DNA of 64,000 nt, from positions 7,775,501 to 7,839,500 of the forward strand of contig OX387610.1 of NCBI GenBank assembly GCA_947568835.1, read 5' to 3'. The stretch is from Protonemura montana. Lineage: Eukaryota; Arthropoda; Insecta; Plecoptera; Nemouridae. The notes under the pieces are model-generated. The model was not told where the DNA came from. It made no database searches and saw only the letters and a program-made list of their open reading frames with translations. Below, piece after piece: positions 14,860 to 63,440 of this stretch. Both the position numbers and the translations under genes were made by a program. How positions within the stretch are numbered: the first letter of the stretch is position 1; each line of letters opens with the position of its first letter.

Positions 14860-15245
14860 CGTGCTATAAATTTCCCCGAAAACCCGGCGCCTCTACGGGC
14901 GCGTCGACCCGCAGCGACGCCGAGTAAATATTTACCCGCCGCGGCGTCGCCGTCTTTGATCGACGCCGCCGCGACGCCAACGCCTCGTCGAGATGCAATT
15001 GTATTTAATAAACACATGCTTATAATACAGTGGTTGGTTTGTGTGCCACAGATGATGTTTTCTCATCTTTGAGTTCATATTATGGTATAGTCTAGTAGTT
15101 GATATCTTATTTAGACTATGGTAAGTTATTTGATGAATATCATTACTAGTTCAAAATATTGAAGTTCACTTCTAGAATTATTTAGTAATTATAGAATACT
15201 GTTGATATTATGGTAAGCGTCGTGGTATTTTGTGAGCTTTGCCGG
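14860..15245. other. Composition-switch island (strong)
   Basis: A C- and CpG-rich core (14870-15000, with repeated GACGCC/GGCGTC words) gives way near 15010 to T/G-rich DNA that continues to about 15245. No protein is recognised in the GC-rich core. Confidence 0.6.
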
Positions 15246-15593
15246 AAAGATCGGGCATTTTTAGACGCTAAAAACTCAATTTATAGCGTCGTCTATGAAA
15301 TTATAAAATAAATTATCATTAAATGATGTAATGATGAATGGTGCAGCTGTTGTTTGAATTCCACTACTTTACAGTTTTGAAATTTGGGTCGTTTTTTTAA
15401 GATTTTGTCAACAAGATTTAAAAAAAAATACTTTAGAAATGTCTAACACATACAAAAGACAAAAGATAATCGGTTATATTCGCGCATTTCCACATAGATG
15501 ACAAGGTCATTCAATTTTTACACTGACATTTGATTTGATCAGATTTTGAACATAATTTGGATAATTTACAATACCACTTACATCAATACCACA

Positions 15594-15640
15594 TTACATC
15601 AAGCAGACATGAGTCTAAAAACAATCATAATACCAATTAA
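15594..15640 (-). repeat. M4 terminal fragment
   Basis: TCAAGCAGACATGAGTCTAAAAACAATCATAA matches the terminal repeat of M4 (see 42377 and 47485). The rest of the element is not seen. Confidence 0.45.
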
Positions 15641-16080
15641 AGTTGTGAAAGTTGTGAAAACAACCCCAAATTTCCGTTGTCACGGAACAGAAAAATGTGT
15701 CTGTCACCATAAAAAATTTCTCCATATAAACACACCCGTAAAAAAAAACTACTTTAAAGCTAACCGGTAGACAATGCAACGTTGACAAGATGTATTCTTC
15801 TCCGCACCACACGTGAATTGTACTTATGCCATATTACTTTATTGCTGCCTACGGGTACGACAACAAAGCCATATCCCGCCCGGAGCTAGTTGGAAAATAC
15901 GAACTAAGGGTTGTGTTCAAGGGATACTGGCATACAGTATAGACCAATAGGGGATTTGAGAAACTCGTTATCTGCAGACATATAACGCTACTACATGAAA
16001 GCTGGTACATTTTGCATGATATACTTTGTGAGAGATTCTTCTTTATAAGATAGAGTACAAAGCTCTTCGGGATAGACACA

Positions 16081-16115
16081 GTATATATATCTATATCTAT
16101 ATCTATATATATCTG
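16081..16115. repeat. (TATATC)n simple repeat
   Basis: About four units of TATATC/TATATA. Microsatellite. Confidence 0.75.
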
Positions 16116-16179
16116 TGTACTATGTAAGGGAGGATATAGGGGAAGCTTCGGGTGACCCAATCAGGAAGAGGGATGCTCT

Positions 16180-16298
16180 CGGGGTATTTCACCCTCTAGC
16201 CAACCCCCAAGCTGCGCGAATCTAGTCGCAATGTTGCGCCTCTCGGCCCCGAACCCCTCTCTCCCCGCACCCTTACCACGCGCTTGCACCCCTGGGGT

Positions 16299-16330
<32 letters not shown>

Positions 16331-16610
16331 AGACGATGTTTGATATAGCGTTCGATATGCACGGTAACTAAGCAAACAGTAGTTGTTACTGTTAGGGGTG
16401 GTTGGGTTTTTTGGGGACTGACTAATTAAACGTGATTTTGGGGGTCTTGAAGAAACCGCATCGGGGTACTGATGGGTTATGTTTGTAAACTTGTATTTTT
16501 ATTTGTTTGCTTGCGTTGTGATGGTATATTAGGTGAAGTGGCTCGATTACTGGTGGCTAGATGATGAGATGTCCGTATTGTCCATTGTTAAGATTCTCTC
16601 AATCGTCTTT
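16180..16610. other. Composition-switch island with a 29-base G run
   Basis: Line 16201-16260 counts 12 G and 26 C; line 16381-16440 counts 20 G, 4 C, 25 T and 11 A. At the switch lies an uninterrupted run of 29 G at 16302-16330, preceded by GGGGTGGA. The run could form G-quadruplexes in a G-rich single strand. It may also be a place where assembly length is unreliable. Confidence 0.7.
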
Positions 16611-16894
16611 TTGTAAGGTGCGTAAATAACCTCTTACAAATTGGTCATCAAGGTTTCAAGGTCATAAGTGGACATTTAATGGAGGAGATGCTTACTAAAG
16701 CAATGAAAAACAGTAAAAAGTTAAAATTTTCGGAACAATTATTAAGAAATACAAACAAATATGAACTGCATTTACCTTCGTGGCATTCATAGACAGAGGG
16801 ATGTGTTTTAAGCTTCAAAATACGCTCATATAACAATTTAAATTCTATTAATTTGGAAATCTTGTATTGCTATTAAATAAATCGTGTTAGATTT

Positions 16895-17275
16895 TTAACT
16901 TCTCAAAAACACATTCTTTAATACATTTCTTATTCTTATGTCCTTATAAAACTTCACAAAACCCTCGTTGCCCCTCAAAACTCCACAGCCATGACACACC
17001 ATAAATATCCAGTGAGAAGTCACTGTCCACAACGTCAAGACGCCGACGTCGTGCGCCCCGAGGACGTCCCACTTTCCCGGCGTCTCGACGCCCGAGGGGC
17101 TGCAAGAAGGGGGTGGGGGGCGTCGATTCTGCGCCGTCGAGACGCCCGAGGGTGGGCGGTGCCCCTCCGTCGCGCCGTCAGCGCCGGTCGGTTTGCGTTT
17201 CGATCTGGAGCGCTGATTTCTTGCAAATAGAGTTAACAAGGAGAATTTCCTTAGATGAAAGTGGTGATGTTGTTT
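16895..17275. other. Composition-switch island (strong, CpG-rich)
   Basis: The C/A-rich left arm (16900-17030) leads into a GC-rich core with GACGCCGACGTC, GGCGTCTCGACGCCCG and GGGGGTGGGGGGCG, then a G/T-rich right arm from about 17180. Overlapping ORFs on both strands (up to 114 codons) are typical of GC-rich DNA and match no known family. Confidence 0.65.
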
Positions 17276-17294
17276 TATTATTATGAACGCTTCT

Positions 17295-17600
17295 AGCCTC
17301 TCAAAAATTGATGTTCAAAAGGGGACTCGAACCCCGATCTTCACCTATTGCGGGCGTTGCTCCAACCAATTGAACTCTCTGGACACATAATTTTTGAGAT
17401 GATTTTAGTGTATTTGATGGTAATGACGGATCTCCAAGGAGTAGAACCAAGAGGCTGTGAATACTCACAGTCACTCTGATTCTAGTGACGCTATACCACA
17501 TTACAATAATTCATTCTCGAGTAACTCCAATTTCACGTTGGATGCGTTGTATTTAGTTGAAATCTAAATTTAAATTGCAAACGCCTGCATTAAGAAACAT
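17295..17600 (-). mobile_element. tRNA-like repeat, long copy
   Basis: On the minus strand the box B GGTTCGAGTCC sits in a GGGG/CCCC T-arm, with a box A-like AGTTCAATTGGTTGGAGCA upstream. The tail reads AACATCAATTTTTGAGAGG. Anticodon-loop position 33 is G rather than T and the acceptor stem has mismatches, so this is not a working tRNA. About 200 bp of body (TCACTAGAATCAGAGTGACTG block) lies 5' of the tRNA-like part, as at 40010. Confidence 0.75.
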
Positions 17601-17699
17601 TAACAATCAACATAAACAATAAATTACACATTTTAAAACAAAGATCTTTGGGAAGATTTAAAAAAATTCGATATTAGGTTGAACAATATGGTTTAAACT

Positions 17700-17945
17700 T
17701 AACTCACCTTGCTTGTAAACCTCACGACAGCTTGGATTTGTGGAAGAATCATGTTCGCTTTGTACCGTCCTTCGGAAGAGACGTTAAGTCAGTGGTCCCC
17801 TTGGTGCTTTTCGACAGTAGGAGGCTACGTGCTGGCACCGGGTTTTGCCTCCTCTCTTCTAGGCTAGGTTAAATATATTATCATCACGCCATTAGACCAG
17901 TGCCACAGACCCCGTCGTCAAAACAGTGCGTCGCTAACCTTGCTT
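17700..17945 (+). mobile_element. 5S-SINE, 5'-truncated
   Basis: The copy starts inside the body (CACCTTGCTTGTAAACCTC, CGACAGC) and runs through CCGTCCTTCGGAAGAG, CTACGTGCTGGCACCGGG and TAGGCTAGGTTA to the 3' end AAACAGTGCGTCGCTAAC. The 5S head is absent. Confidence 0.85.
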
Positions 17946-18044
17946 TAATAATTGAACTAAAGCATAGCTTAAGTTTATTTTCTTGTTGTTTACTATTCTG
18001 AATTGTATTCACACTTCTGAGGAACTATATTTGACTTAGGCCAG

Positions 18045-18685
18045 GTTTTACCAAACTATTTAAATACAAGTTGGACCTCTCACTCACAGATACATCAGCT
18101 GAATTTCACTGCATGTGATGGAAGTCGCCATGGCAAAAATGTCAACTAACACTTCAAACGATTTTTAAAAAAATCAGACCTTTTCACATACTATAGAAAT
18201 TGCACCAGCATCATGATAACTGTTTTTGATGAAATCCATTTCTCAAAAGTGTGAGCTTTGAGAGTCGAACGTGTTTAAAAATTGATGTCCACTTGCCTGG
18301 AGCCGTTTGCAATGAATAGACGCTCTCCAAAAAGACAGGCATAAAGAACGGAGGTTATATTTAACATATCGATTAACGTAGAGGACGTGAAACGTACTTG
18401 ACAGTGACCTTCATGGAAAATTTACTTTTCTTAGATTACGGGTGGAAAATGTTTCTAAAGATTTTCAGGGAGCTTAACTTAATCAAATATTATATACAGT
18501 CAAGGTAGGAAAGGAACGATTGAATTTCTGATACATTAATTACAATACTTTTGAGATATGTTATTTCAGAACTATACGTAGGTCCGGTTTTTCCAAAATC
18601 TCGCCTCCTTGCTGAAGTGTTAGTTGAAACTATTGTCATGGCGACTTCCAATCACATGCAGTTTGTAATACCGGGACTTTACAAA
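18045..18685. mobile_element. M3, foldback-type element
   Basis: The left arm (18108-18160, CTGCATGTGATGG, AAGTCGCCATGG, TCAACTAACACTTCA) and the right arm (18617-18667) are inverted copies with roughly 85% identity by eye. They are separated by about 450 bp of AT-rich DNA. The outer limits are uncertain and no transposase is encoded. Confidence 0.55.
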
Positions 18686-19679
18686 ATAAACTCTAAGCAC
18701 AGATTGATCTAAGATTATTGTAAATCAAGATGTGTGGGCAAAGTAAATACTGCATTAACAATATTACCAAGTATTTGTCACAAAATGACGGTACACATTG
18801 TCCAAATCATTGCCCACGGTTCAAAATAGATTCATCTAGGTTCCGTTTTGCGAAATCCAATAATTGCAATGCATCAAAATGGTCATCTACAAACCTCACG
18901 GACATAACCAAAATGGTCAAAAGTCAATGGCATTTGCAACGGAATATATTCAAATCAAATCAAAATTGCACCAATGACATATGACAATAGATAGTTTGCA
19001 AAACTACAGACAAATAGCGAAATTCATTATCCAAAGCATGTACTGCATGCTGCAGGAGAAATGTTCAGTTCATTTGATCGTTGAGGTTTGGAGATATAAT
19101 CAAACAATGGTCACAATCCTGGTTGGCGTCCCGTATTTTAGCATTCGCTCAATGAGCAAATGTGACGGGCTTCCCAAAGGAATTCCATGTAAGCAAACTA
19201 CAAAACTCTAATGTTAAACCACAGGTTAATATTTATACAAACTTGTGCTAACTTGGATAGAAATTTAGAATACGTACACTGTAATTGTCGAAGCGTTTTT
19301 TCGTGTTCTAATTGAGAGCAGAAGAATTTTTAACATAATTATGCTATATTACCAAAAAACCACATGTTTTCTCTTCGATTTAGCAATATATTCACACAGC
19401 AATGTCCAATTACCACAAAGGAGAATAACTTCTGAAGGAATCCATTCCATATTCTAAGAATTACCTCCTCTACGCTAGCACGAACAAGATTTGGTATAGT
19501 TAAGCCAGATCATTTACGACAACATTCACAAACCCATGAGTGAAGAATTTATATTTCTAAAGGATTCCTTCTACATCTTGTTTGCATTGGGTTTGTAGTC
19601 TAATCAGAGTAACAGTGCAAACGATAAACTGTCTTCGCAAAAATTGTGTTTTGAGTGTTAAGAAATATAATTTCGTTGT

Positions 19680-19865
19680 TTCTCTCAGATTACTCGCATT
19701 TGAGACTAGTTTGCGCTGAATTAATTTTTATTTATGGTGACTTCTACAATTGATTTATAAGCATCGATATTTTGAGTCGTAATTATTTAATTGTAAAATA
19801 AAACACAGCCGCAAGCGTGTCAGGTGGTCACTACCGTAACCAACTGTCAAAAGCTGTTAAACGAT
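19680..19865 (+). mobile_element. MITE M1, partial
   Basis: AGATTACTCGCATTTGAGACTAGTTT is followed by ATCGATATTTTGAGTCGTAATTATTTAATTG, GCCGCAAGCG and GGTGGTCACTACCGTAACCA. The order matches the copy at 38480. The right terminal repeat is lost. Confidence 0.65.
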
Positions 19866-19929
19866 TCAAAATATCGCTGTGACAATATTTTTAAGCTACA
19901 GCCTCAATAGTTTTTAGCACGAACAAAAT

Positions 19930-20485
19930 TTAATAGCATTTCCAACTCGTTCACGACAATACGCGCAAAAGTGACGTCCAGCCGTCGACGCCAATCCCAG
20001 CGGCGCTACACAAGCTCGGGGGGCGTCGCCTCGTATCCGACGTCGCGGGGCGGCGGTGAATGTGCCTACCGATGTGGGGGGAGGCTAGCGGGTGCCGACG
20101 AGGGGGTAGCTAGCTCGGGCACCCTGGAGCTGGCAGTATCGCGTGACGACCTAGCGGGACAGCTACGGGCTAGGCGGCTAAGGTTCTTGAGGTGGGTGAC
20201 AGATCGCTTTAGGGTTTTAGCCTTGGGTGGTTTCGGTGATTTTAGGTGACGTTTTTAATTTGATACGGTTTGTTGATGAATTTGCTTTTAATTTGATTTG
20301 TTTTGATTTCGTGATGGTGGCTAGGTGAAGGATAGTGCGGTTGGTAATGTTTCGGTCTTAGATTTGGGTGGTTGGGTTATGGATACGGTGATATTTTTAG
20401 TGTTTTCGCTTTAGTTGTGATTGTAGCGTTTGATATTATTATTTTTTTTTGTTTGTTGTGATACTGTAGTGAAAGTGGTCGGGTG
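19930..20485. other. Composition-switch island (very strong right arm)
   Basis: The left arm line 19921 counts 9 G and 15 C. The core (19970-20180) is CpG-rich with GACGTC and GACGCC words and G runs. The right arm continues G/T-rich for over 300 bases; line 20221 has 18 G, 5 C, 27 T and 10 A. The 92-codon ORF at 19971-20249 has no recognisable domain. Confidence 0.7.
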
Positions 20486-20489
20486 CTAG

Positions 20490-22245
20490 TTAGCTTCAAA
20501 GCTTAATTTTGGGGATGAGAGCAAATAATTGATAATTTTTTATAATATGTGGTGATTTTGCGATCTCGATGGGTAGTGATTAACTTGGCGTTGGTAAATT
20601 GTAGAGGAAAATTGACTGAATGTTTTTTTTTTTCAACGAAATACATTTCTACGGTTATTTTTTGACAACTTTTTCATAAATGTTTTGATTTGGACCAACA
20701 CATTTTGCCTGCAGTTCTCAAAAATGTAGACGGTAAATGGTCGAGATTTGTAAGAAGGAGTCATTTTGCCCTTGGCCAGATGCCTTGTAATTGTGAATAT
20801 TTTGCGGTCATAAAAGATGTAGTCATATTTAAAGTTGCTTCACACCCACTTTTGCGATAAATTTGTAAATACAAGTTTTTGGTAAATGCTTTTAATTTTT
20901 TAAGTCCCTCCAATTGGTACCAATTAAGTAGCGGCAATCAAAATTGGTGTGAAACTCGAAAATAACCACAAGACTTTGACATTAACATGCATTTAACGAG
21001 AACTGTTAACGATATTTCGCTGCTTAAACAAGCTATTATTTATCACTAAAACGAAAAAGATTTATCTTTTTTTATGTAATATGACTTTTCACATTGTTGT
21101 CACAAGTATTAAACAGTGATTTTCGTCGATTTTCCTAATTTTTCTGAACAAATCGCACGGTTTTTGGTTACACGACTTGCCGACGGTAAAGTTGTGCAGA
21201 TTCACGTGCTGGGTTCGTTTCCCGTGTGTGCGGTTTTCAACTCGAAGTCCGCAGTTGTATTTTACTCGAGATTACACAAAAGCCAATGAATCAGGAAATA
21301 TTTCTTATGCAAAATTATGCATCGCAATATTTAGGTTGTGTGTACCTGCACATTTTTATAATGCATATAACCACCATATAACATTAAAACACGAGTTTTG
21401 GTCGAGTTTTTTTGTAAGAATTTTATCTAGGAATGAAGAAGATCAAGCATGTTTAAACATCGCCTGACTTTTAGTATTAAAAACCGTTTCACCAAGAAAT
21501 TATTTTACCTAAAATCAGAATAAATTACTACAGTGGAGAAAGATTCTCACATTAAATTAGCTGATACTGCAGGTCGGTTCAGTTTTTAAGTCGGTTTCAG
21601 GTTTAATATTAGTGTGATGTTTGAAAATGTAAACAGTTTTTATTTTTTATTTTTTATTGAACTGATTCTTTATTATTTGTGGTGTTTAACGACGGATTCT
21701 TTATTTAGTCGCTGACTGATTTCACATCAAAGTTAAGGCTAAATTAAAATCTCTGGTTAAAACAATATCTTTGAGTTAACGAATTGTCGTCATGGTTACA
21801 GTTAATCGGATTCTTATATTTGCATCTCAATCTCCGGTTATTTTTTTATTACGACATTGTTATCTTGGTTACAGATGAATTCACATTATTAGATTTAAAA
21901 ATTAAGATTTTATAGAAATCTTTTAATATAATTGTGAAGTTCTTGTTAGCAATTTTTGGCTTTCTGACACCAAAAAAAGGTGAGATTGTCAATTCACAAG
22001 TGTTAAATTTTAAGGCAATCTCTTGCTAACAACGTTTCTGTTCCTATGACCCTTTAACGGTTGACTTTCGTGAAAACCTGAAGATAAACGTGGAAATGTT
22101 TTTAAAAACGTTCTCAAAGGCCTATTTGAAAAAAAAAATTGTGTTATTCTATAAACAAATATTTACATTTAGTACACAACTGTTTCATATACTTATCATG
22201 TTAACTGGTAAATTGTGAAGAAATATACAAATACAGTTAACACGA
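20490..22245. other. No recognised gene
   Basis: AT-rich DNA. At 21675-21695 there is a scrap of 5S-SINE 3' end (TTTGTGGTGTTTAACGACG, minus strand). At about 21750-21870 two GGTTACAG words and CTCTGGTTA/CTCCGGTTA blocks hint at an old inverted-repeat element. ORFs here look random. Confidence 0.4.
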
Positions 22246-22249
22246 TTCA

Positions 22250-22785
22250 AGCCGCAATAAAAAAGCAACAAATCACAACAAAAATATACCAAATTTAACC
22301 AATTGCCACATCACACCATTAACTGCAATAAAAAAAAATTGACCATAACTACCAAATCAAAATCCTTAAAAACACTTAAAAAAAAATCATCTAATTCCTT
22401 TGACCGAATCAAAGGTGGTATACATGCGTCAAAAACTCTCAAAACTCGACACGTGTAAAAACGTGGATCTATTTCCTTATTACCTTTGTGGGTCGCTAAT
22501 TGGTTCGCCCGAAACACCAGCTCCTAATTAGCATTGGTAGCTCGTGTCTCAGCCGAGATCACGACAAGATCAAAGCATCGCTCTGTTCGGCTCAAAACTA
22601 TTTGAAATATGCTCAGAGAATGCCCGGCTCGGTATCCACATGCCACTAATTGAACACAGATTGCGTGTCGATAGAAAAATTGCGTGTGTCTGTGTGTGGA
22701 TGGGTCTGGAGAATTTAAATTCTTGTAGGTGTTTAAATCTGAATAATCTGTTTGGAAAAATCGTGAGATTTCTAGATACATAATT
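22250..22785. other. Composition-switch island (strong)
   Basis: A long C/A-rich left arm (22250-22400, few G) leads through a mixed core (22490-22650) to a G/T-rich right arm from about 22670 (GTGTCTGTGTGTGGATGGG). Overlapping ORFs on both strands at 22524-22788 resemble nothing known. Confidence 0.6.
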
Positions 22786-23199
22786 CAAGATTGTTAAAAG
22801 AAAAAGGTTCTGTTTGAACTAATACAACGCAATCGTTTAACAGAGTTATTTTTTGTGTTAGTGTTAAATTATGATTTTTTTCGAGTTTTATCATTTTGTT
22901 TCTTTGACAAGGACACTAAGTTTTTGTCTGTGAGGTTTCTTCTCAAATTAATTTGGTGAATTTTTCTTCCTTTTCCAGAACGAGCCGATTGTCTTGAAAG
23001 AAAATCAGCTAACACCGAACATTTCCGAAGAAAAATCAGTGTTTTCGTGATGCGTCTTTGATATTCAATCAACTTTTGATACCATCGAAAAACATGATTT
23101 AGAACAGCGCACAAAATTCTTAGTGTTTTTCATCTAACTTTCTGATTTGCCTACAAGAAAACAACTCTGTTGTCTTCTTTCTGATGTCATTCCTCGTGT

Positions 23200-23345
23200 G
23201 ATTTTGTAAGACTTTCGCGTGTGTGCTTTTCGTTGCTTCGTCGGCGTCGGGACGCCTGTACTTTTGACGTCGAATCAGCGCCGACGGCTCACGATGTCCT
23301 TCTTAGCACTGGAACCCAATGCTTGGCAGGTAAGGGTGACAAACT
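23200..23345. other. Small CpG-rich island
   Basis: A core with GTCGGCGTCGGGACGCC, TGACGTCG and GCGCCGACGG. It shares vocabulary with the larger islands but its arms are weak. Confidence 0.4.
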
Positions 23346-24029
23346 TTTCATATTTATCACCGGATTTGGTCGAAGTGTGATGATTTTCAAACAGAATTCT
23401 GCTGACTTGATCTGAAATTTACGCATTTATCGTTAAAAACATTTCCGACAAGTGTATCGAAACTTTAGGTTTCAAGTTGGACTTCAGCAAGGCTGAAACC
23501 CCAATCAAAGAAAAGTTTTTCCGTTTAAAATGTGTTTTAAAACCAGTCTCTTGCCAACTCCTTATAGGTATTTACCACCAGATTGGGATGATTTTTAAAA
23601 AGACTCATGTTTACCCTAAAAGTTAAGCTTTGGTCATTATAAAAATGTCAGGTACAGTTTCCTTCGTATGGTAAAACTGTTGGACGTTCATTCAGGATTC
23701 AAAATCCGGCCTGGGAAAAGTTTCTTCTGTCGAAATGTGTTTTAAAAATTAGCCTCTTGGTCTCCAAGGTAAAATATGAAAATATCGTGCTTTTAAACTT
23801 AAAACATGTCAAAAGAATATGGTTGATTATGTTTTTCGTTCTGTTATACGTCACTCTCACATATGAGAAGTTGATTACCGGACCTCCGACTCAATTTCCC
23901 AAATAGCTGACAGCTCATGAGCAGGAATCATGAGCAGGAGTTATATTTTGCGATTTTTTTTTGTAATTTATTTTGAGCTATACCTGCACCTTTGATTAGG
24001 TATGACACTCAAGAACCAAGAATCCCTTA

Positions 24030-24640
24030 AAAGCTGAAAGAAAACAATCCTAGACTAATTCAACCTGCCCCAAAACTACTCTTCTATGAAAATATTCTAT
24101 CTTTTCACTGAATAAAAATGTTAAGCCGAAAATCTCATGACCTAACCGATCACAAAAAAACCTCACAACTTTCATATAGCGTATAAGTAAACAAATCAAA
24201 TCTTTCAATTCCTTATCCCAGAAAAAAAAAGATATAAGAAACCCAACCCTAAAACGGCACCAATTTCACCAGCAATATTTCACGGGGGAACGATTTCACC
24301 CCTCCTGATGTAGTATTCCAGTCACTCGGCAAAGACTCGGGCCATGATTCAATCCCGTCGGCTCAAGATTCGTTTTCCGGCGTCGTCATCCGGGTGGGGC
24401 GCCAATTGCATTTCCTCTCCCGGCCGGACACTGGCCACGCACAAATCAGATTCGAGCGGCAACACGCATTTGCTGCGCCAAGCGTTCAAAGGCGTTTTGT
24501 CTTTTGTAGGTGAGTTAGGGGAGTTTGACGAACTTACTCGTGGTCTGTGGGCTTTGTGAGCGAGTTATTCAGTTGGGAAAATTGAAGGAGGTATATTTTG
24601 TGGTGTAACGTTTACTTGTGAGATCAAATCACTCGGTAAC
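24030..24640. other. Composition-switch island (strong)
   Basis: The left arm 24040-24260 is C/A-rich and very poor in G. The core 24300-24490 is CpG-rich (CCGGCGTCGTCATCCGGG). The right arm 24500-24620 is G/T-rich (TAGGTGAGTTAGGGGAG). The switch is near 24490. Confidence 0.65.
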
Positions 24641-24732
24641 CCATCCTAGCGTAGTTTTTGGTAGATTATTTCATACAAACAATCCTTTATTGAACTTATT
24701 ATAAGCCACGGCAGAAGTGTAATTCCTAAAGT

Positions 24733-24819
24733 TCCTCGTTATCACTCACTCGTTAACCGACGCCATTTCACCAGTGACAAATGACCGGCGCCAACCCAGT
24801 GCGTCGTTAAACAACACAA
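24733..24819 (+). mobile_element. 5S-SINE, 3' end fragment
   Basis: CACTCACTCGTTAACCGACGCCATT ... CCAGTGACAAATGACC ... CAGTGCGTCGTTAAACAACAC is the last roughly 85 bp of the family. Confidence 0.6.
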
Positions 24820-25980: not shown

Positions 25981-25989
25981 TTAATCAAT

Positions 25990-27520: not shown

Positions 27521-27540
27521 GCGTGATGGTCTTTAGAGCC

Positions 27541-52580: not shown

Positions 52581-52726
52581 CTGGCTACAGTACGTATCAT
52601 ATTAAGATTTACTTTACCACTTTTCTCTCAAATATGAGACTAACAGAGTTTTAATCAATGTCTATGCAGCATAGAATCATTGTAACCAAAGTGACAGTCG
52701 GATAATCACAGCAAAGTGGTAAAAAC

Positions 52727-53008: not shown

Positions 53009-53269
53009 CAGTTACTAAAATACGTTTAAAGGTTAAAATTTATGTTAAACTTAACGATTTGCACCAAAAAAATATATATATATGCATTTTTTGACGTAGA
53101 TTCTGTACCCTAATTCGTTAGATATTTTACTGTATTAAAGTTCCTTACAATTTAGTCATCGTTAGTTTATTACTACCTGAATATCAATAAAAATGTGTCT
53201 GAAAAGTTAGTAGAAGTCTCTAATAACAAACCTAGTGTGGAAAACTAGAATACAACATCTTCTATATTA

Positions 53270-53560
53270 GGTATAAGATCCTATCCCAGAGCCTTGTCTG
53301 TTGCCTGCGGGTTCTAAACCCCCAAACACGCATGTTTGGGGCTATATAACGACCTAGTGGGTTGGGGTCTCCGCCTGCGGGGCTCATATGTGGCGGTAAC
53401 AATGGTAAATGGTGGTAAATGGGAAATGATATGGGAGAGACGAGAACGCCACATAAACGCGTGAGCATGCAAAACACACAAAATGCTGGGTATTCTAAAC
53501 GATTGTAAATGTTCTCGTGACGTGGAGGAGGAATATAATAGTATTTTTGTTTCGGAGTTT
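53270..53560. other. Composition-switch island (moderate)
   Basis: The C-richer left part (CCCCCAAACACGCATG) switches near 53350 to G-rich DNA (GGGTTGGGGTCTCC, then GGTGGTAAATGGG). ATGTTTGGGG pairs with the preceding CCCCCAAACA as a short inverted repeat. Confidence 0.5.
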
Positions 53561-53564
53561 TTTT

Positions 53565-55070
53565 TTTTTTTTAGTGAAATTAGAGAAAAAAAAATCACGT
53601 TATTTTAGATTCCGAAAAGGTATTGTTCGAAAACGGGATTTTTTTTGTTAATGGTTTTTTATTAAGTTTGAATTCGTTATTTTAAATATATGATTTTCAA
53701 TTCCTATCAATCATGGGTTTTTATTTTCATTAAATTATTCAATTCGATTCACCCAGTGAATAACAAAAAAAAATATTCCAAAGTTTACTTACAAAAATTT
53801 TTACATTTAAAATTCCGATTGAAATGTAATTGTTATTCCGTATAGGCATTGAGTTTACACAAATGAAAGCAATTTTAAAAATTACAAGCGTTGCATTCAC
53901 AGATATCGGATATTTTTCGCTTAGCTAAACAAGTAATTAATGTCAAACAGTTGATTCAAAACGCGGTATACCTACTATACCTTTTTGTAAACAAAAAAAA
54001 AAAAAAAAAAAACGTAATAACTTTGTCGTATATTCCCTCAGGCAAAATCGGTCTAGCGTTTTGTCAAAATAACGTATCGTCATACATGTTTTGTTGAATT
54101 TACCATGCATAAGCAAGAAACGTAAACAACTGATTTTAATTTCAAACTGTCAGAGGCAGATGTTTTAAGCGATATCGGAATTTTGAGTTGTCTCTTTTGC
54201 TAGTTTATTATAGGTACAATTGCTGTGATATTGGGCGACATAGGTACCATACACGCGTTGTATTTTGTGAGTTTGTTTCGTTGAAAAGTATATCCTTTAG
54301 GCGTAAAATGTCACCGTTTCATATGTACTCACGTCATTAGTCTTTTATTTATCGGTCAATTGTGCTCCTGTTATGTTATGGTCACAGGGTTATGCCTTTG
54401 TGAATTTCAAATTTTTACTTTGAAATTTTGTGTTAACAAAAGCTTGAGTTTTAAAATTATTTATTTAAAAAAAGCTGTTGTATATGCTTTACGGTAGGTG
54501 CATTGCAGGATTTAGTGTAAAAATATTTAAACGTCTTTTGACGAATAGGTAAGCAGTTTATTTGACAAATCCTGCTATTAAATTGCTTTCGATTTTCATA
54601 ACTACTTCACTAAATATACTCCGTTCAGCGAGAGTACATACTTTTCCAGCCGAAGGCGCCACTGAAAATCATCTGCGCTGATATCCGTCATTTTTATTTG
54701 CTCTAAAGCTTTCATGTGCCAAAATATTTTGTTTTTTAATCTGTTATAAGATCTTTTATATCAATTATAACAATATTGGAAATTGTTTTACTGATGAAGA
54801 CACAAAAGTATTTTGAAATTCGGCCACTAAAATCATAACTGAAATTGGTAGAAATGCTGTGGGCAGTTTTTGGGGTGATATCTCCTTGCACCTGACTGTC
54901 TGGGAAGCGAAAATGAAGTAGAGATGCATTAGAATTCTGTTCACTATAGAATCTGATTTAAAAAAGCGAGACTTCTTTCGATTGGATTTAAAAATTAAAT
55001 TATTCGTTAGCAGTGTGATCAAAATTGTCACCATACAAATAAGTAAACTTTAATTTCGAGTAACTAAAGT
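53565..55070. other. No recognised gene
   Basis: AT-rich DNA with A/T homopolymers, including about 20 A at 53992-54012. No transposon family is recognised. Confidence 0.5.
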
Positions 55071-55079
55071 TCAATTTTT

Positions 55080-55640
55080 TAGGGCAAAAAACCAAGTCCA
55101 CATCAATACAACGCTTCCATAAGATAAACCACAAAAAAAATCTCATCCAATTCAACCGAAACATTACCGAAGAAGATTTCCCCAAACGCAGACGTCCATC
55201 ATCCACATAAACCCCACGTCAAGCCAAGTCATAAGCGACGCGGTCAAACGACGTCGTAAAGCCTACGCCGTCGGCGTCGCGACGTCTTCTACGTAGACGT
55301 CGCGTTGAATGGCCGACCAGGGGACGATAAATCCAGTCGATAACGCGGTGAGATTGCCGGTCTGAATGGCCGATTGGTGGGATAGCTTCTTGCAAAGGGA
55401 AAATACGATTCGCTGGAAGACGCGCGGGGGGATTCGAAGAAAATTGTCGGAATTTTGGGAGTTTTTTTCATGAGTTGTCGCTTTGGGAAGCATTGTTTAT
55501 GTGGGACTTGTGTAAATTAAAGTATTTTTTTCTTTTTGGAAATTTTTTTGTCGTGGTAAATGTGCGGCGTAGGATTTTCTTGTGATATTTAGTAGATTAT
55601 TGCAATGTACTTCATTTCATCTTGAGAAGGGTTGTTTAAG
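55080..55640. other. Composition-switch island (strong, GACGTC-rich)
   Basis: Line 55141-55200 counts 7 G and 20 C; line 55441-55500 counts 16 G and 5 C. The core (55225-55315) is dense in ACGTC/GACGT words, with GACGTC palindromes at about 55250, 55282 and 55297. The switch is near 55320. Confidence 0.7.
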
Positions 55641-55774
55641 TTCTGATATCTTCTTGTTTAGATGAAAACAAATTGTTTAAAAATTCTTGGCAAAATGTTT
55701 TAATGTTTTGTGTGAGACCATGGACATTTTCAGATGCACACAATTAGTGTACCTTTTATTAATTTAATTTCGGA

Positions 55775-56119
55775 TTGCCTGATTTCGTAAAAATAAAAAC
55801 CATTTTCAATCTCCAGTTAAACTATGGTTTGTCGAAAATTGTAAAATTAATGGTCAAACAATGGCGCAATGTTATTGACAGTAAATTACATAACAGAGTG
55901 CACCTAGATTTTGCTAAAACAGTTACGTTATTGGCACATATAATTGATACAAATCTAGATTTAGCCATCGAAATCGATACACAAGCAGCCACACCAGATC
56001 GAACCTCTTTGAATCCAATCCGATTCCAAGCACAATTCAATTCAACATATGTATTAACTTCGTCTCAGCGTAGGAAGCAGCAATTTCAGTCTCGACTGAA
56101 TCTCAAGACGCTTAATTAA
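55775..56119 (+). CDS. Unrecognised 114-codon ORF
   Basis: The ORF starts with ATG and encodes a soluble-looking protein: an Ile/Leu/Val/Lys-rich N-terminal half and a Gln/Arg/Ser-rich C-terminal end. No signal peptide, domain or motif is recognised. It lies just right of a composition-switch island, and a shorter ORF overlaps on the other strand. There is no obvious promoter or poly-A signal. It may be an exon, an old transposon fragment or chance. Confidence 0.15.
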   Translation: MPDFVKIKTIFNLQLNYGLSKIVKLMVKQWRNVIDSKLHNRVHLDFAKTVTLLAHIIDTNLDLAIEIDTQAATPDRTSLNPIRFQAQFNSTYVLTSSQRRKQQFQSRLNLKTLN

Positions 56120-56124
56120 CGAAA

Positions 56125-56900
56125 TTGCAGTTGCAGTTTCTAGCTTTGATCTACGACTCGTAACAAAAAAAAAATCTCCCACTCTTTGCACGCAAATTAT
56201 AATCAAAACCTATCAACACAATGTCCTTGCCAACATCTATCCACGATCATAGCCGAAACCCATAACTGCCCTATGCCATAAAATACCTAATAACACACAG
56301 ACCAAGGCAAAATGCTAACTAAAAATACAAAATAAAAATCTATCTTCAGGCAAATTACTTAGTAAAGATACCATGCCGCGCGTTATTTCTTCAAAATGCC
56401 ACCATCTTTCTATTCTGTCTTCGAACGGGCAAGATCCGATCAACTGGGCGGTAACGGAGTACATCAAAGTTCAGCCTCTAACATGTGCCCCTGCCCTTGC
56501 CCCCCTCTATGGGTACTCTAGATGCCCTCAGGGTACCAAAGAGACAGTAGTACCTCTGATTATGCATGATCCGCGCGCCAACCTTCAATGCTACATAATG
56601 CCACAGTCGAGATGAACGTTGGGCAGATGCCATTAGCGAGGTCTGGTACCTGAAACTTGTTTTCGGTATGACAATGATTCGGGATAGTTTTATTGTTCAT
56701 CCCGGAATTTTTGGGTTCTGCTTTTGAAAGGGTTAAGAGTGAGGGATGGATTTTGGGGATGCTAGGTTTTCGTGGTGATTTGAATGGGGCTTGGTGGATT
56801 AATGCATACGCTTCAGTAGGCACATGCTTTGCAGTTGTTAGTTGGTTGATTGTTGTAAGGTTTTGGGATCAGTTACAGCTTTGAAACTCTCTAAGTAATT
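56125..56900. other. Composition-switch island (strong)
   Basis: Line 56221-56280 counts 7 G and 21 C; line 56701-56760 counts 22 G and 5 C. The core lies at 56370-56620 and the switch near 56640. The ORFs across it are unrecognised. Confidence 0.7.
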
Positions 56901-57262
56901 ACTTTTCGGGAAGTGTTCGTGTTTGAAACATTTGATATCGATTGGGTTTGTGGATTCGGTTAGAATATATACCAATTCTTCTCTTTATTTGAGTTGAAAA
57001 GGGTCACTCATCACACTTCGCTGTCCAAAGATGTTGCAGCCCTCTCTTGAAATGGAAAAAGTTGTCATGAGAAATTTTGATTACATTTAGATTGCTTTGC
57101 TAAAAAAACTGCATTCTTATAAATAATATAGTTTATAGTTTTTCTTAATTGAGAAATCACAGATTTACCTGACTCCCAATAACTGCAGAAATTCCTTAAG
57201 CAAAATTTAACCTCTAATTTTTAAAGATTCCGTGCTTTTTTTGACAAAATTTGGTGGAAATA

Positions 57263-57696
57263 CCAAACGGTTTGATGCGTTGAAAACACCGGCTCTCGTG
57301 AGATTACCGAAGTTAAGCAACACATCGCTGAGTCAGGTATTGGATGGATGACTATCATACACATGACCAGTTCTGTTCGGGAGAAAAGTTGGAAGTTAGT
57401 ACTCATTACAACAACTTCACTCGCCTTGTTTATCAACCTCTCAACCGCATGGATTTGTAGAGGAATCCTTCGTTTGGGTTGTACCGACCTACGCAAGGGC
57501 CGTTAATCTGGTGGTCGTCTTGGTGCTCTTCGACAGGAGTAGGATACGTGCCGACATCGGATTTCCTTTCCTCCCTTCTAGGCTAGGGTAGGTTCATCAA
57601 CATCCTCATCACCGTCACCCACTCACTCACCGTCGCCGTTAGACTAGTGCCACGGGGCCCGTTGTCAGAACAGTGTGTCGTTAAACACCACAAATC
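57263..57696 (+). mobile_element. 5S-SINE, full length
   Basis: The 5S-like head is the best preserved: GTTGAAAACACCGGCTCTCG, GATTACCGAAGTTAAGCAAC (box A) and TATTGGATGGATGACTA (box C region). It is followed by the SINE body (TTCTGTTCGGGAGAAAAG, CTTGTTTATCAACCTCTC, TAGGCTAGGGTAGG) and the 3' end CAGTGTGTCGTTAAACACC. At about 430 bp it serves as the reference copy. There is no A-rich tail; the end is AACACCACAAAT. Confidence 0.92.
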
Positions 57697-57699
57697 AAC

Positions 57700-58200
57700 T
57701 TTTCAATTGATATTCTCTTCGATATTCTTTGAATATCTGGTTCAGAAATCATAACACTTCAATTCTGGCGAGAAATTTCGTTTTTTTTCGGATACTAATC
57801 CTTTAAATGTATCGAACATTTTCTACAATACTAATTGTTCTAGCAAAAAAATATAAATAATGAAAACTGCTAAAAGGTCAGCTTGCATTTGGTAAATTTT
57901 ATCAGATATTCACACAAAATGTCTAAACATTTCAATGTAGCTACGATTCAATACCATGGAGATGTGAAAGCAATTGATCTAAAGGTGTACTTTATATGTA
58001 ATGAGTTATTAAAGAGTACACAGTATTTTGAAAGTTAGATACCTACTTTGCTGCCAAGCTGTAGCTAAACATCCCCACCATAGAACAGAAGGTAAATTAA
58101 ATCGTTTTAGATTTCCCTGACTAAAGTTACAGTCACCAAGGGGCATGTACTACTGTACTGAAGTATTCACATAGATTAATTGTCTACCTAGCTCACAAAG
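57700..58200. other. No recognised gene
   Basis: AT-rich sequence without recognised repeats. Confidence 0.5.
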
Positions 58201-59020
58201 ATCGTCTACCGTGATATGATCACAAAAAGGAAGCAGTGTGGAGCCACCCGTAATCTACCGTGACTAAACCATATCCATATATTAAAAACACAAAATTTCG
58301 TTTTATCTTAACCTATAAAGAAAAAAAAAATCAGAACTTATTTTTTTTTTACAACTTAAATATAGGTTAAGCACAGAACGAAGTCGGTGCAATATCAAAA
58401 TAACGTGTACAGTCGAGACCGTTCTAAATTAGCATAAAGCCGTTCTTCGAACTAGGGTAGTTATTAACGTATTGATTGATGTCGCTCCTTCTCGGTGCGT
58501 GGTAACCTATACACATGCTTCAACGTAGAAAGACTGCCGCACGCGGCAATGCTAAGCGCCCAGACAACCAAGAAAAGAGACACTTTTCGCCTAAAGCAGC
58601 GCATTATCCTCTGCATCTATTCCTCCCACCGATCTTTGGCCGGTGTAAGGCATATGAAACAGCATCTTCTGGTTCTGGTATATACGGCGTCTATAACGAA
58701 AGACTCCACCGGTCAGTACAGGCCTTATCGCATGGTCGTCTTCGATCGCGCACACAACATATAATTACACAAAAGCGAATCCAGCTGCTTTTATATAACC
58801 AATCAGATATCAAAACAAGTTGAAACTAAAATAAACCCCACCCAATAGCGACGTGGCTCTTGAGCTAGGCACTCATAAAAGAAATCTTCGTAGCGCACCG
58901 TGGCATTACGAAGGTAGAAATAAATGTTAGGAGACGTCCGATGGTCTGTTCGAGCCCGATAATGGGTCGATTTGTTAGCCGTGGGGCGATCATGGTCTCG
59001 GTGGAAGCCACCCGCAACCG
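58200..59020. other. GC-richer region with short ORFs, unrecognised
   Basis: Two overlapping plus-strand ORFs (58495-58764 and 58515-58823) lie in mixed-composition DNA. A weak C/A-to-G/T change occurs near 58880-58990. The proteins resemble nothing I know. Overlap of two frames with equal quality argues against coding. Confidence 0.35.
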
Positions 59021-59366
59021 TTTATATTTTCGGTGTTCTAATCTTGGTTATCTTTTCGGCCTTTGAGAAAGCTGTGTGCATATATGGTACATATCAAAAA
59101 CACAGGTGCTTAAAAATGTCAAGTTTTCAAGTTTTAATTTTAGTGTCTTTGTTCGATCTTGTCAGGTGTCATTATTTCAACCCGTCTCGACACTCGAGCA
59201 CCTAATCTCATGTTTTCCCAACAGGTAAACACCAGAAATTGAATTGCAATGCAACAGATTCGAAAACGAAGCTCAATCAATTGATTCTGACAGCTTGGAT
59301 GTAAATTTGGACTTTTTATAAATATTGCGCACTATTGCTAGATTTATTTTTTGTGCTTTTTTATTT

Positions 59367-59418
59367 TTCGACGCACTGTTTTGACAACTGGCCATGCGGC
59401 ACTGGTCTAAATGGCGCT
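59367..59418 (-). mobile_element. 5S-SINE, 3' end fragment
   Basis: CGACGCACTGTTTTGACAAC followed by TGGCCATGCGGCACTGGTCTAAATGGCG on the plus strand is the family 3' end. Similarity ends sharply on both sides. Confidence 0.7.
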
Positions 59419-59479
59419 TATTGCTAGAAATCGATGCACATGACTTTTTGGGATTCACTGTAACTGTAAATTGTAAAAA

Positions 59480-59790
59480 AAAAGCGTGAACAATGATGAG
59501 CCCTGTGGGGTTTTTTGATTTACTCCCCCGTTTTTTGATGTGCGCTGGTATTTTTTGGTATTTTTTTTTTTTTTTTGCTTCGGCCAGAGGGGACTTTGGA
59601 ATAGCTAGCGTGCGCGCAAAGGGTTAGGTGATTTTTGGGGGCCTCGACCCGTGTATTCGACACGCATCTTGGTGGAAAGGAGCTGGCTTCTTCTTGGTGT
59701 TGGGCGAGCGAGTCGACGATCAAGATTTTTGGGTACACTATATTGAGTTTTAATTCTGTTACGTGCCGTGATCTGCGGTGTAGTGGCCCG
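59480..59790. other. G/T-rich right arm
   Basis: G/T-rich DNA with a T run at about 59562-59577 and GTGATTTTTGGGGGCC. A matching C/A-rich left arm is not seen. Confidence 0.4.
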
Positions 59791-59859
59791 TTGAAAATTG
59801 ATCGACGATTTGAATTTTATACGGAGAAACGTTGCGGTCTTAGGTAGACACGTGGTCTA

Positions 59860-60984
59860 AGGATTTTATTCCCTGCAGGCAAGAATAAAACACGTGACAT
59901 ATAACATTTGAGTTAATGCCTCCTAAGATAGTTCGTGAAATCCTGCAATGTGATCGCCTGACAGCACGAATTTCTTTATAAATTTATAAATAATGAAAGT
60001 TTTGATTCGTTTATTGTAATTAATTTAGAATCAATTCGTGGCGTTTTCGGAATCAGAAAATTGGGTCTTACCATCAATTACGTTACAGAAATTCCATGAT
60101 TAAAATTCGCTATAAAAAAGCAATCCTCTTTAGCTTGCAATCTATAAAAGAAATTTTATAAAACGAGAAGCTTCACGCATTCATAGCTAGAAGGCGTTAT
60201 TCAAACAATTTAAATCGCTCAATTTGAAATATATTATATTTTCAGCTAATTGTATATAACACTTAGTAGTGCCGGAAGACCTCACGGTTGAATATTTATA
60301 TTTAAATGCACAATATTTTGCAACCGTCTTCGTAGATTTGATTGACAAGCGGGTAAACTTAGAAGATTGCGGAAGTCCACGCGAGTAGCGAAGGCGTTTC
60401 ACTCTTACTCTGTTTCATTCTGATCCATCGACATTTTTGCATATTTATTATTTAGCAAGAACGATTATTTTAGCTATCAGGACTTGCGAAATATTGATTA
60501 ATTACGTTGTTTTGCGGTTTTATTAATGATTTAGTAGTGACAGCGCCAGTTTTGCAAAAAATATTTTATTAATATTGTTCTGTCATGTCGTTTTAAAAGA
60601 ATGGGTAACATAATCAAGAGAAGTTTTCTAAAAAATCGTACTCAATTTCGACAAAAATTGAAAAAAATCTAAATTTTCGATTTTAGTTCGGTTTCATCAA
60701 GCGACCTAAAAAGCTGGTAGATAAGATGTTTGAGTCTACATCCCTTAAAGCTCATAAGGCGGCCTTGATGATCCTAAGCCTGTACTAACTGCTAAGAAGG
60801 AAGATAATGCATGGCGTAAACTGGACCTGTAAAATAAATTTAATCTTCAATATTCACTAAAAAGATATAAGAATAGAGGATATGTTAGTTTGAACTTCTT
60901 GGTAATTGCGAAGGATATGAAAATAATTAAGCATAATGTGTGATCTTAAATTATTTGTTAAAATATCCCTTCGAAGCATATCAA
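59860..60984. other. No recognised gene
   Basis: AT-rich DNA between two SINE copies. ORFs here (60187-60402, 60857-61045) match nothing known. Confidence 0.5.
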
Positions 60985-61372
60985 CCGAACGGTTTGTCGT
61001 GTTGAAAAAACTGGCTCTCATGAGATTGCTGAAGTTAAGCAACACTGCGCTGGGTCAGGTAAAGGATTGGTGACCATCATACACATACCAGTTCTGTTCG
61101 GGCGAAAGGTTGGAGGGATGAAAGTTAGTACCGAAACTTCATTCGCCTTGCTTATCAACCTCTCGACAGCATGGATTAGTGGAGGAATCCTGCTGTTTGT
61201 GATGTACCGACTTTAAGCTGGAGTAGGCTACGTGCTGGCACCGGGTTTTACCTTCTCCCATCTAGGCTCGGTTAGGTTCATCCTCATCTTTATACACACT
61301 ATTACACCGACGTCATAGGACCAGTACCGTAGTGACCGTTGACTAAACAAGAAGACTTTAAACACCACTAAT
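60985..61372 (+). mobile_element. 5S-SINE, full length
   Basis: The head TGAAGTTAAGCAACACTGCG and GGATTGGTGACCATC keeps box A and part of box C. The body includes CAGTTCTGTTCGGGCG, CTTGCTTATCAACCTCTCG, GGCTACGTGCTGGCACCGGG and CTAGGCTCGGTTAGG. About 30 bp around the CTTCCGAAGG block are deleted. The 3' end (TTTAAACACCACTAATT) is mutated. Confidence 0.9.
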
Positions 61373-61379
61373 TTATAAA

Positions 61380-61845
61380 AACAATCTTAGAAAACCAAAG
61401 TCCAATAAGATACAAAAATTCTAATTCGGTTCTTATAGCCGAAAAAAAAATTGCCAGCACCGTCATCATAAAGTGCCGGCCACGTTAATAAAGTGAGTCG
61501 CTTATTAAAAGCATCCCATCGAGTCGATCACCTCCAACCTCTGGATCCTAGTAGCTGCTGCATGCGGCGCTATGCATGCGGGGGGTGGGGTACGAAGGCT
61601 ACCGTTTGGTGCACGAGGACCCCCCTAGGGTGCCGGCATCGAGCCCCCGCGGAGGCATTCGGTGTCCCGCGGAGAAGCTATCATCGCTCTCAGTCCTCGA
61701 GGGGCACACTTTTAACACGTGTCTTCTGTCATCGGGTTCCATTGTGGCGTTACGCGTGGCTTTCGTTTAGGGTTGGGTAGCTGGGTAGGGACATATTTCT
61801 CACCATTTTGTTATTTGAAATGTTGAAGAGTTAAGATTCTATTAT
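61380..61845. other. Composition-switch island (strong)
   Basis: The A/C-rich left arm (61380-61545) switches near 61570, at CATGCGGGGGGTGGGGTACG, to a GC- and G/T-rich right arm. Two overlapping ORFs (61493-61780, 61576-61770) have no recognisable domain. Confidence 0.6.
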
Positions 61846-61862
61846 CTAACTAGAAAACTATC

Positions 61863-62138
61863 TCATTTAAGAGTTTCTTCCGCCACGGTTTGTGCTTTAA
61901 ATTTGAGCTGGAAACTATTTAAAGAAAGTTTTATCGCATTTTCATTGGTAAAATACATCGGAAAAGCGTGGGCTCCGTCATATATATGTTTTACCATTTT
62001 TCTTAATGCTCTTTCTGACAATGTTCGACCATGATTTCGAAACATGGATGCAGTTTGTCTCAAATTTTCTTGTGCGTCGCTCTCTTCATCTTTCATCTTC
62101 ATTTCTTCACTAACAACACCTACCATTGGGTTGTGCAT
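61863..62138 (-). CDS. Unrecognised 91-codon ORF
   Basis: The predicted protein is charged and protein-like. An acidic N-terminal segment (EEMKMKDEESDAQENLRQ) is followed by a basic stretch (FRNHGRTLSERALRKMVKHI) and a mixed C-terminal part. No signal peptide or known motif is seen. It sits in AT-rich DNA, where a 276-base open frame is somewhat unusual. It could be an exon or a transposon relic. Function is unknown. Confidence 0.25.
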   Translation of the reverse strand: MHNPMVGVVSEEMKMKDEESDAQENLRQTASMFRNHGRTLSERALRKMVKHIYDGAHAFPMYFTNENAIKLSLNSFQLKFKAQTVAEETLK

Positions 62139-62574
62139 AGCTTTTCGCGTTAGCTCAAATGCACGGAAAACGCAGTTTCCTTACATTTCTTCAAAACAAA
62201 TTTTAAATACGTGAAAATAGCTTTCATCTGTATTTTACCAAAAGTATTGCAAATTTGAATTCTAGTAATTTCTAGTGTTCTGGCCTATGAATCACCAAGA
62301 ATTAAATTCACTGAAATATAGTTTAAACATATGCGGGCCTGCAGCAGAAAGTTATAAACTAATGCATTTTTCCGACCGTAGTTAGGTTGACTTTTAAAGA
62401 CGTTGTGTGTTCTTGTATTATTTCGGCTCTAAGTTTTTCAAAGAGCTTCTTGCGTTTTCTAAGCGCGTTTTCTCTTGAATACTAAGAGATAAAAAGAGAC
62501 ATGGGAGGAAATAAGAGATAGACACAAAAAAATAAGATTCAGACACCACAAACACAACCAAACAAAACATTTTG

Positions 62575-62745
62575 GCACAGTAAAAGCTTTAGGGCTGAAG
62601 AAAAATGGCGGAAATCAACGGAAATGGTAATTGTAATGTTTATTTTAAATCATAGTTGGCCCGCATGTCACTCCTAAAGCGACTGGTGTTACCTCTGTCG
62701 GTAAAATATATCTTGCTGATCTCTCTTTAAATGATTCAACGCTTG
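62575..62745 (+). repeat. Dispersed repeat M6, partial
   Basis: AGTAAAAGCTTTAGG, AAATGGCGGAAATCAACGG, CGACTGGTGTTACCTCTGTCGG and TAAAATATATCTTGCTGATCTCTC parallel 48565-48720 (GTAAAAGCTTTAAAAC, AAATGGCGGACATCAGCG, CGACCAGTGG) and 42695-42740. Confidence 0.5.
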
Positions 62746-62749
62746 TAAT

Positions 62750-63440
62750 ACATTAATCTTATCACGCATAAAGTTCAAACCTCTATGACACAAACGCTAT
62801 TAAAGACAAGTACAACCCTAATCAACCAAGACAAACACCGCTAATAAATGTCACAATTATAATAATAAGCTAATTATCTCCAAGCCCACTCATGCGCACA
62901 ATGAGTCAGTACAAATAACCAATCGCCCTTCTCATTAAAAAAAAAAATCTGCAAACCCCGAAGCAAAACCACATAAAACACATGGTCATAAACGTCACAT
63001 AGATTTGAGCTGACTTCGTTTATTCGTTGATGTCGCTTTGGTCATGGAGCATGGACGACCACCTCCCATCACAAGCAAGGAGCTCGACGGTTCGACGTGT
63101 CGATCATTAAGTGGGAGTAGTCGATATGTGCCTGGTATCCAACCAGAAGCCTCAGCAGTAAGATGTCGTGATGTCTTCAGGCTACAGGACATCGAATTCC
63201 TGCGACCGCCGAGGTAATCTATGCAAGAATCTGCAGCCGCCGTAGCAGCCATAGTCCTTCGGAGGAGGGATTCGAAGATGCGGTCGATTCTTGTCGTCTT
63301 TTTTTTCTGTTTCTTGAGACAATGTCGCGGCTTGATCGGATGGAACGAAAATGAAACTGAGATGAGAAGATTTGAATCTGTGTATGTCTGGCATTCAGGT
63401 TTTTATGGGATGATGTGGTCTATAGCGTAATATCGATGCA
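62750..63440. other. Composition-switch island (strong left arm)
   Basis: A long C/A-rich left arm (62750-62995) is followed by a mixed core (63000-63270) and a G/T-rich right arm (63275-63430). Minus-strand ORFs at 62995-63252 and 63182-63394 are unrecognised and overlap a plus-strand ORF. Confidence 0.6.

Follow-up and report, generated by a model that had tools for sequence, protein, structure and literature searches.

Mammalian promoters lying head to head in CpG islands possess a centre rich in guanine and cytosine (GC) with two inverted GC-skew peaks, located within about 500 bases on either side (PMC3882496, in its part on such promoters). Human constitutive replication origins exhibit a local rise in GC, skew jumps and G-quadruplex (G4) motifs, features that are reproduced by an origin-mutagenesis model (PMC9645720, in the portion dealing with this model), and efficient human origins are characterized by a GC-skew transition in AT-rich surroundings (as described in part of PMC9303276). 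In the flanks of human meiotic hotspots, C>N and A>N changes are found on the forward strand to the left of the break, where it is single-stranded, and G>N and T>N changes on the other side (PMC7615360, in its part on hotspot flanks). Here we describe a stretch of 64,000 bases from the stonefly Protonemura montana (the window; positions 7,775,501-7,839,500 of the 17.8-Mb contig OX387610.1, in an assembly of 258 Mb and 34 contigs), in which short islands with a C/A-rich left arm and a G/T-rich right arm follow each other through a domain that is largely non-coding and measures at least 50 kb, at an average spacing of about 1.9 kb. This pattern of one-polarity switches is a real, statistically strong and regionally concentrated anomaly.

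Polarity and shape of the composition switches

An earlier note on this DNA had listed 26 switch points, all leading from C/A-rich to G/T-rich sequence. Each of the 26 was found to have a positive keto (G/T) step, ranging from 0.17 to 0.56 with 300-base arms, as did the further points 63150 and 63290 within its last interval (63010-63290) and the two weak switch points that it gave at 420 and 5550; its hand counts of G and C per 60 bases were exact for all four pairs (8/8). The statement that no GC-rich core has the opposite polarity was nearly right, as core GC reaches at least 0.5 at 89 positions (50-base steps, 14.4-63.6 kb), of which 52 have a step of at least 0.2 and two a step of -0.2 or lower. 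The location of the switches at GC-rich cores holds for most of them, but not for 7 of the 26 (22660, 29270, 38000, 44200, 47120, 56640 and 63010), where core GC is 0.32-0.46. Down-switches with a GC of at least 0.42 could be identified in the window at 14765, 41287 and 61292, and overlap with masked repeats for 37%, 68% and 70%, respectively.

The repeat mask was made from homology among the window and the fetched stretches, and misses families outside that sample. With repeats masked, the region of 14-64 kb contains no GC-rich down-switch at a step of 0.36 and one at a step of 0.30. When cores in the window were detected on GC alone after masking, G-C skew was seen to rise at 30 of the 30 cores and T-A skew at 24 of the 30, with 19 strong upward and no strong downward cores; a fixed GC threshold in the region of 14-64 kb gave 29/30 and 23/30, respectively. 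Conversely, detection on G-C skew alone gave 26 up-switches with a mean local GC of 0.53 and 17 down-switches with a mean local GC of 0.37. The excess is smaller for unmasked cores, of which 36/50 rise in the whole window and 30/37 beyond 14 kb. A 43-base satellite and copies resembling a short interspersed nuclear element (SINE) are GC-rich without the polarity of the islands.

Random reverse-complementing of 100-base blocks (2000 trials of this strand-flip null) yielded a fraction of rising cores of 0.51 on average and 0.86 at most, versus an observed 0.97 (29/30), and a mean step of at most 0.161, versus an observed 0.279. After local shuffling within 400-base blocks (40 shuffles), 64% of the cores still rise; such shuffling retains the coarse skew, so that the strand flips form the appropriate null.

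The shape of the islands was taken from a profile centred on GC content alone, in which skew plays no part in the selection. GC drops from 0.58 to 0.35, near background, by 150-250 bases from the centre. The outward G skew is highest at 150-250 bases (0.286), then declines to 0.216 at 250-350, 0.11 at 350-500 and 0.05 at 500-700 bases, and becomes slightly negative at 700-1400 bases; the outward T skew follows the G profile, reaching 0.126. A profile centred on the best skew step overstates the edges at 300 bases, the arm length for which the step had been optimised. The mean outward keto skew is 0.153 on the left and 0.172 on the right, and the purine skew 0.01-0.02; the axis of the asymmetry is thus keto/amino, the outward strand being rich in G and T. 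This strand is depleted in C and A relative to background in 31 of 32 neighbour-context ratios, without a CpG-specific effect, with arms placed by maximising skew, so that the sizes of these ratios are flattered. G4-forming motifs were found five times on the outward arms, and neither on the inward strand nor in the background. The left-right heterogeneity of the islands (standard deviation 0.183, versus 0.159 expected from background) is not informative on promoters versus origins. In the flanks of the domain (8.1 and 6.6 kb of unmasked DNA between cores), G and T skews are 0.018 and 0.011 on the left, and 0.024 and -0.029 on the right; by this comparison, skew does not shift on a large scale from one side of the domain to the other.

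Regional concentration and genomic setting

The comparison sample consisted of twenty stretches of 10 kb each, taken from three other contigs (C1-C3; 200 kb in total). G-C skew rises at all 30 repeat-masked cores of the window and at all 9 in the next 20 kb, compared to 67 of 124 in the sampled stretches, where 7 strong upward and no strong downward masked cores were found. Without masking, 113 of the 194 sampled cores rise, and both skews rise at 62 and fall at 36; elsewhere in the genome, a slight bias in this direction may exist. GC-rich switches with a step of at least 0.36 number 19 up and 0 down at 14-64 kb versus 2 up and 1 down in the sample, and at a step of 0.30 these numbers are 22 and 1 versus 8 and 6. 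The domain is at least ten times denser in islands than the sampled 200 kb. Low regional GC was rejected as its cause, as rising cores are only 27 of 53 in sampled stretches with less than 41.5% GC.

The domain has no sharp end, and a weaker form extends into both flanks (10 kb on the left and 30 kb on the right). These contain 14 GC-rich up-switches and one down-switch at a step of 0.30, nearly the density of the domain, and just 4 up and none down at 0.36; the first 14 kb of the window has one GC-rich up-switch at either step. The earlier note implied a law for the whole genome, and this was not supported. The motif pair CCCC-gap-GGGG occurs 28,423 times in the up and 26,731 times in the down orientation (ratio 1.06, with run overlaps and repeats counted), a homopolymer pair pattern 78 versus 89 times (ratio 0.88, many of the listed places being copies of one tandem array), and CCCA-gap-TGGG 51,740 versus 52,022 times (ratio 0.99). 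The up bias in these probes is at most 6%, and the sampled regions hardly show the pattern. For CCCA-gap-TGGG the counts are 21 versus 5 in the 80 kb of the domain plus right flank and 40 versus 48 in the sampled 200 kb, the domain ratio being flattered because this probe was chosen afterwards as second best of 102 patterns. The switch pattern is a regional anomaly and not a genome-wide rule; in searches of the insect literature, no report of such a switch domain was recognised among the listed papers.

The window has 38% GC and is not depleted in CpG. It looks non-coding, as judged from its reading frames, since only three stop-to-stop frames reach 130 residues and none of the 10 open reading frames scanned, out of 312 of at least 55 residues, reached the Pfam cut-off.

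Proposed transcription initiation and competing explanations

Unique GC-rich cores with a local two-sided keto/amino asymmetry are concentrated in this domain. We infer, at slightly less than an even chance, that the islands are some 25 promoter- or enhancer-like bidirectional start sites of RNA synthesis, active in the germline and situated in a non-coding regulatory stretch. RNA synthesis would begin outward in both directions at each of these short sites in germ-line cells, and the outward, RNA-like strand would be exposed or repaired in a different manner over the few hundred bases adjoining the site in either direction. Over evolutionary time this strand would shed A and C and acquire G and T, and the outcome would be C/A on the left and G/T on the right, with a single polarity at every site regardless of sequence. 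This reading is favoured by the outward keto skew of the GC-centred profile, the single-copy state of the three islands searched, the lack of homology among islands beyond that of control segments, their low repeat content and the restriction of G4-forming motifs to the outward arms. Loss of A and C with gain of G and T is the direction of transcription-associated asymmetry in mammals, and the polarity fits outward strands that act like the mammalian coding strand, or like the leading strand at origins. Bidirectional initiation is probably the mechanism, with transcription carrying somewhat under half of the weight and replication about a quarter. The earlier note had offered an initiation zone or a divergent promoter for each island; this pair of readings appears to be the right one, but not in the version in which replication forks shape N-domain-like skew, as the skew extends only about 500-700 bases per side.

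Several observations weigh against transcription as the cause. Both arms exceed 0.1 in only 12 of the 26 islands, with 6 having such an arm on the right only and 1 on the left only, a spread that does not exceed background noise. Positive skew returns in the outermost distance bin of the GC-centred profile (at 1400-2500 bases; 1129 bases in total; G 0.121, T 0.127), perhaps due to islands that miss the GC threshold, such as that at 38067. TATA, initiator and poly(A) words are not clearly enriched over 60 dinucleotide shuffles, and an initiator-like word is depleted at 400-1000 bases relative to such shuffles; arthropod enhancers may do without core promoter motifs. Words for 5' splice sites within 400 bases number 6 outward versus 12.6 in shuffled sequence (standard deviation 2.8), and 6 inward versus 5.3. 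Scarcity of outward 5' splice sites is typical of unstable upstream RNAs or enhancer RNAs and speaks for transcription, but this argument is weakened by the depletion of these words in both directions at 400-1000 bases. No coding gene was recognised in the window among the 10 of 312 reading frames scanned, and the sampled 200 kb, presumably with ordinary promoters, has the mentioned 2 GC-rich up-switches and 1 down-switch. One island sits about 550-700 bases upstream of the apparent ATG (near 87369 in window numbering) of the nearest recognised gene, an AAA-ATPase gene to the right of the window, which we take to be DRC11/IQCA-like; this single gene start is ambiguous. Low repeat content of the islands hints at constraint, yet this avoidance of repeats may in part reflect that islands with an insertion escape detection. 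Finally, transcription starts of invertebrates are stated to have a C bias on their coding strand, which runs counter to what this reading requires (PMC3315797, in its part on invertebrates).

The main rival to transcription is local mutagenesis at origins, in which each island is a discrete germline origin within one initiation zone, with mutations caused by origin firing, rather than by fork passage, as the source of its GC core and of the skew jump around it. We consider this rather unlikely. The islands have GC cores in unique DNA of 37% GC, outward G4 motifs and a skew jump (S-jump) with the appropriate sign, as such a model would have it, and promoter-type and origin-type sites often coincide. 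On the other hand, skew is about zero at 700-1400 bases and the flanks lack the expected difference, so that net fork polarity has left no trace, and the spacing of about 1.9 kb is far denser than that of replication origins, which is usually much wider. The limitation of skew to about 500-700 bases, together with the lack of a domain-wide difference, speaks against fork-length replication asymmetry; an N-domain reading was rejected, since the skew jump is not followed by a slow decay to the next origin and the flanks do not have opposite skews. That a germline initiation zone could here be resolved, from its sequence alone, into about 25 fixed origins with local skew jumps within some 500 bases and no fork-length skew is put at an unlikely one-fifth or so.

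Selection on regulatory sequence would make the arms functional keto/amino-biased DNA (motif clusters, G4, nucleosome-excluding tracts), symmetric and without a mutational cause. Some core words are indeed above Markov expectation, with homopolymers ranking first (CGACGCC in 7, CGACGTC in 4 and TAATTA in 8 of the 26 islands, words of the GACGTC type being concentrated in 4), and by eye long runs of C or G and tracts of CA or GT agree with the polarity. Moreover, repeats make up 5.4% of the bases in islands versus 14.3% in the whole domain, a value as low being found in 10 of 2000 circular shifts. The spread of the asymmetry over 31 of 32 contexts is more like a mutational spectrum than like motifs, and selection as the cause is quite unlikely. 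A compositionally palindromic transposon (a foldback or long inverted-repeat element) present in decayed copies would agree with the reverse-complement symmetry of the composition, and a repeat family had been raised as an alternative in the earlier note; self-alignment of the islands did not bear this out. At E <=0.01, five matches were obtained among the 26 islands, and the list for 15 control segments also contains five, with one appearing twice; one of the inter-island matches is a short self-palindrome and one lies in a repeat at the outer edges of the islands. Self-homologous bases amount to 5.6% in islands versus 16.2% elsewhere, and all three islands searched proved to be single-copy, leaving a transposon family hardly credible. 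Exons of a long gene, GC-rich relative to AT-rich introns and with splicing-linked skew, would account for GC cores every 1.9 kb or so, but the lack of Pfam hits among the frames scanned, and the mirrored C/A and G/T arms with a purine skew near zero, make them very improbable; upstream of exons, the intron side is expected to be rich in C and T. Meiotic double-strand-break hotspots, with asymmetric mutation in resected DNA and a GC core built by gene conversion, would also combine GC-rich cores with strand asymmetry on both sides. Their predicted depletion of C and A on the left and of G and T on the right is not what is seen, the left arms being rich in C and A, and this highly improbable candidate was rejected on polarity (PMC7615360, in the part cited above).

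Feature list and comparison with known systems

Coordinates of the islands and the neighbouring gene are collected in the table.

Table. Domain, islands and nearest gene (window coordinates unless stated otherwise)
Feature	Position	Strand	Remarks
Domain of dense one-polarity keto/amino switch islands	14680..63400	.	continues weaker outside window; 19 GC-rich up / 0 down, 14-64 kb, step 0.36
Island, switch 15030	14680..15380	.	
Island, switch 16293	15943..16643	.	long G run, right arm
Island, switch 17109	16759..17459	.	
Island, switch ~20050-20167	19817..20517	.	single-copy
Island, switch ~22453	22103..22803	.	
Island, switch ~24306-24490	23956..24656	.	
Island, switch 26143	25793..26493	.	T-A weak
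Island, switch 27164	26814..27514	.	
Island, switch 29251	28901..29601	.	
Island, switch 31959	31609..32309	.	
Island, switch 33736	33386..34086	.	G run, right arm
Island, switch 35037	34687..35387	.	G run, right arm
Island, switch 36776	36426..37126	.	
Island, switch 38067	37717..38417	.	below GC threshold of GC-centred detection
Island, switch 39421	39071..39771	.	
Island, switch 44165	43815..44515	.	not GC-rich at switch
Island, switch 46317	45967..46667	.	single-copy
Island, switch 47127	46777..47477	.	
Island, switch 48933	48583..49283	.	single-copy
Island, switch 50002	49652..50352	.	
Island, switch 51287	50937..51637	.	
Island, switch 53350-53484	53000..53834	.	weak
Island, switch 55345	54995..55695	.	
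Island, switch 56584	56234..56934	.	
Island, switch 61549	61199..61899	.	
Island, switch 63004	62654..63354	.	
Outlying island of like kind, switch 5550-5568	5218..5918	.	keto step 0.42, core GC 0.61
AAA-ATPase gene, right of window	fetched stretches L034 7362-9297 to L036 ~3369	minus	Pfam AAA 3.1e-12

Various repeats occur in the window. Arrays of the 43-base satellite are located at 3811-4114 and 6040-8543, and an exact 34-base piece of it is found 845 times forward and 990 times reverse in the genome. A 5S ribosomal RNA-like interspersed repeat lies at 60984-61103 (Rfam RF00001, 44.4 bits), with diverged 5S-like copies in both orientations near 17695, 25705, 28531, 41189 and 57262, and a 92-base tandem repeat at 9733-10158 (4.6 copies) has 5S-like wording by eye. 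Another family is present at 17273-17339, 32415-32481, 39790-39843 and 39989-40055; some copies have what we take to be a word resembling the B-box of transfer RNA (tRNA), and ARAGORN called no tRNA. Elsewhere in the assembly, a tandem array with a period of about 9.5 kb, possibly ribosomal DNA, occupies the start of contig C11 (1547 to about 105000), and 130 matches to the cuticle domain Chitin_bind_4 and thousands of overlapping matches of the TTAGG telomere type were found, both of which point to an arthropod. At 2.28-3.32 Mb of contig C16, a series of homeobox exons that share the minus strand probably represents the Hox cluster. A homeobox gene as regulatory target of the islands was rejected, the closest among the matches listed on the same contig being about 0.84 Mb away.

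Should the islands prove to be fixed points of outward initiation, germline start sites of an arthropod could be located finely from genome sequence alone, and this domain would make it possible to test in a natural setting whether local skew jumps stem from transcription or from replication. The regional concentration of the islands is of no less importance. Of the described systems, human meiotic break hotspots resemble the islands in their local two-sided strand asymmetry and differ in its polarity, which is opposite (PMC7615360, in its part on hotspot flanks). With human S-jumps and constitutive origins, the islands share a skew jump at a GC peak, AT-rich surroundings and G4 motifs, as far as these are covered in parts of PMC9645720 and PMC9303276; unlike those origins, they are far denser and display neither a slow decay between sites nor a domain-scale skew change. 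Unlike mammalian bidirectional promoters, they reside in an arthropod genome that is not depleted in CpG and stand about 25 in a row at some 1.9 kb, AT skew jumps as well, no coding gene was recognised at the sites, and enrichment of promoter motifs over dinucleotide shuffles was not found. They nevertheless share with these promoters the GC-rich centre, the paired inverted skew peaks and a G-rich outward strand (PMC3882496, in the part on bidirectional promoters), the scale of the peaks being alike; on average, islands whose centres are defined by GC do show such a pair of peaks.

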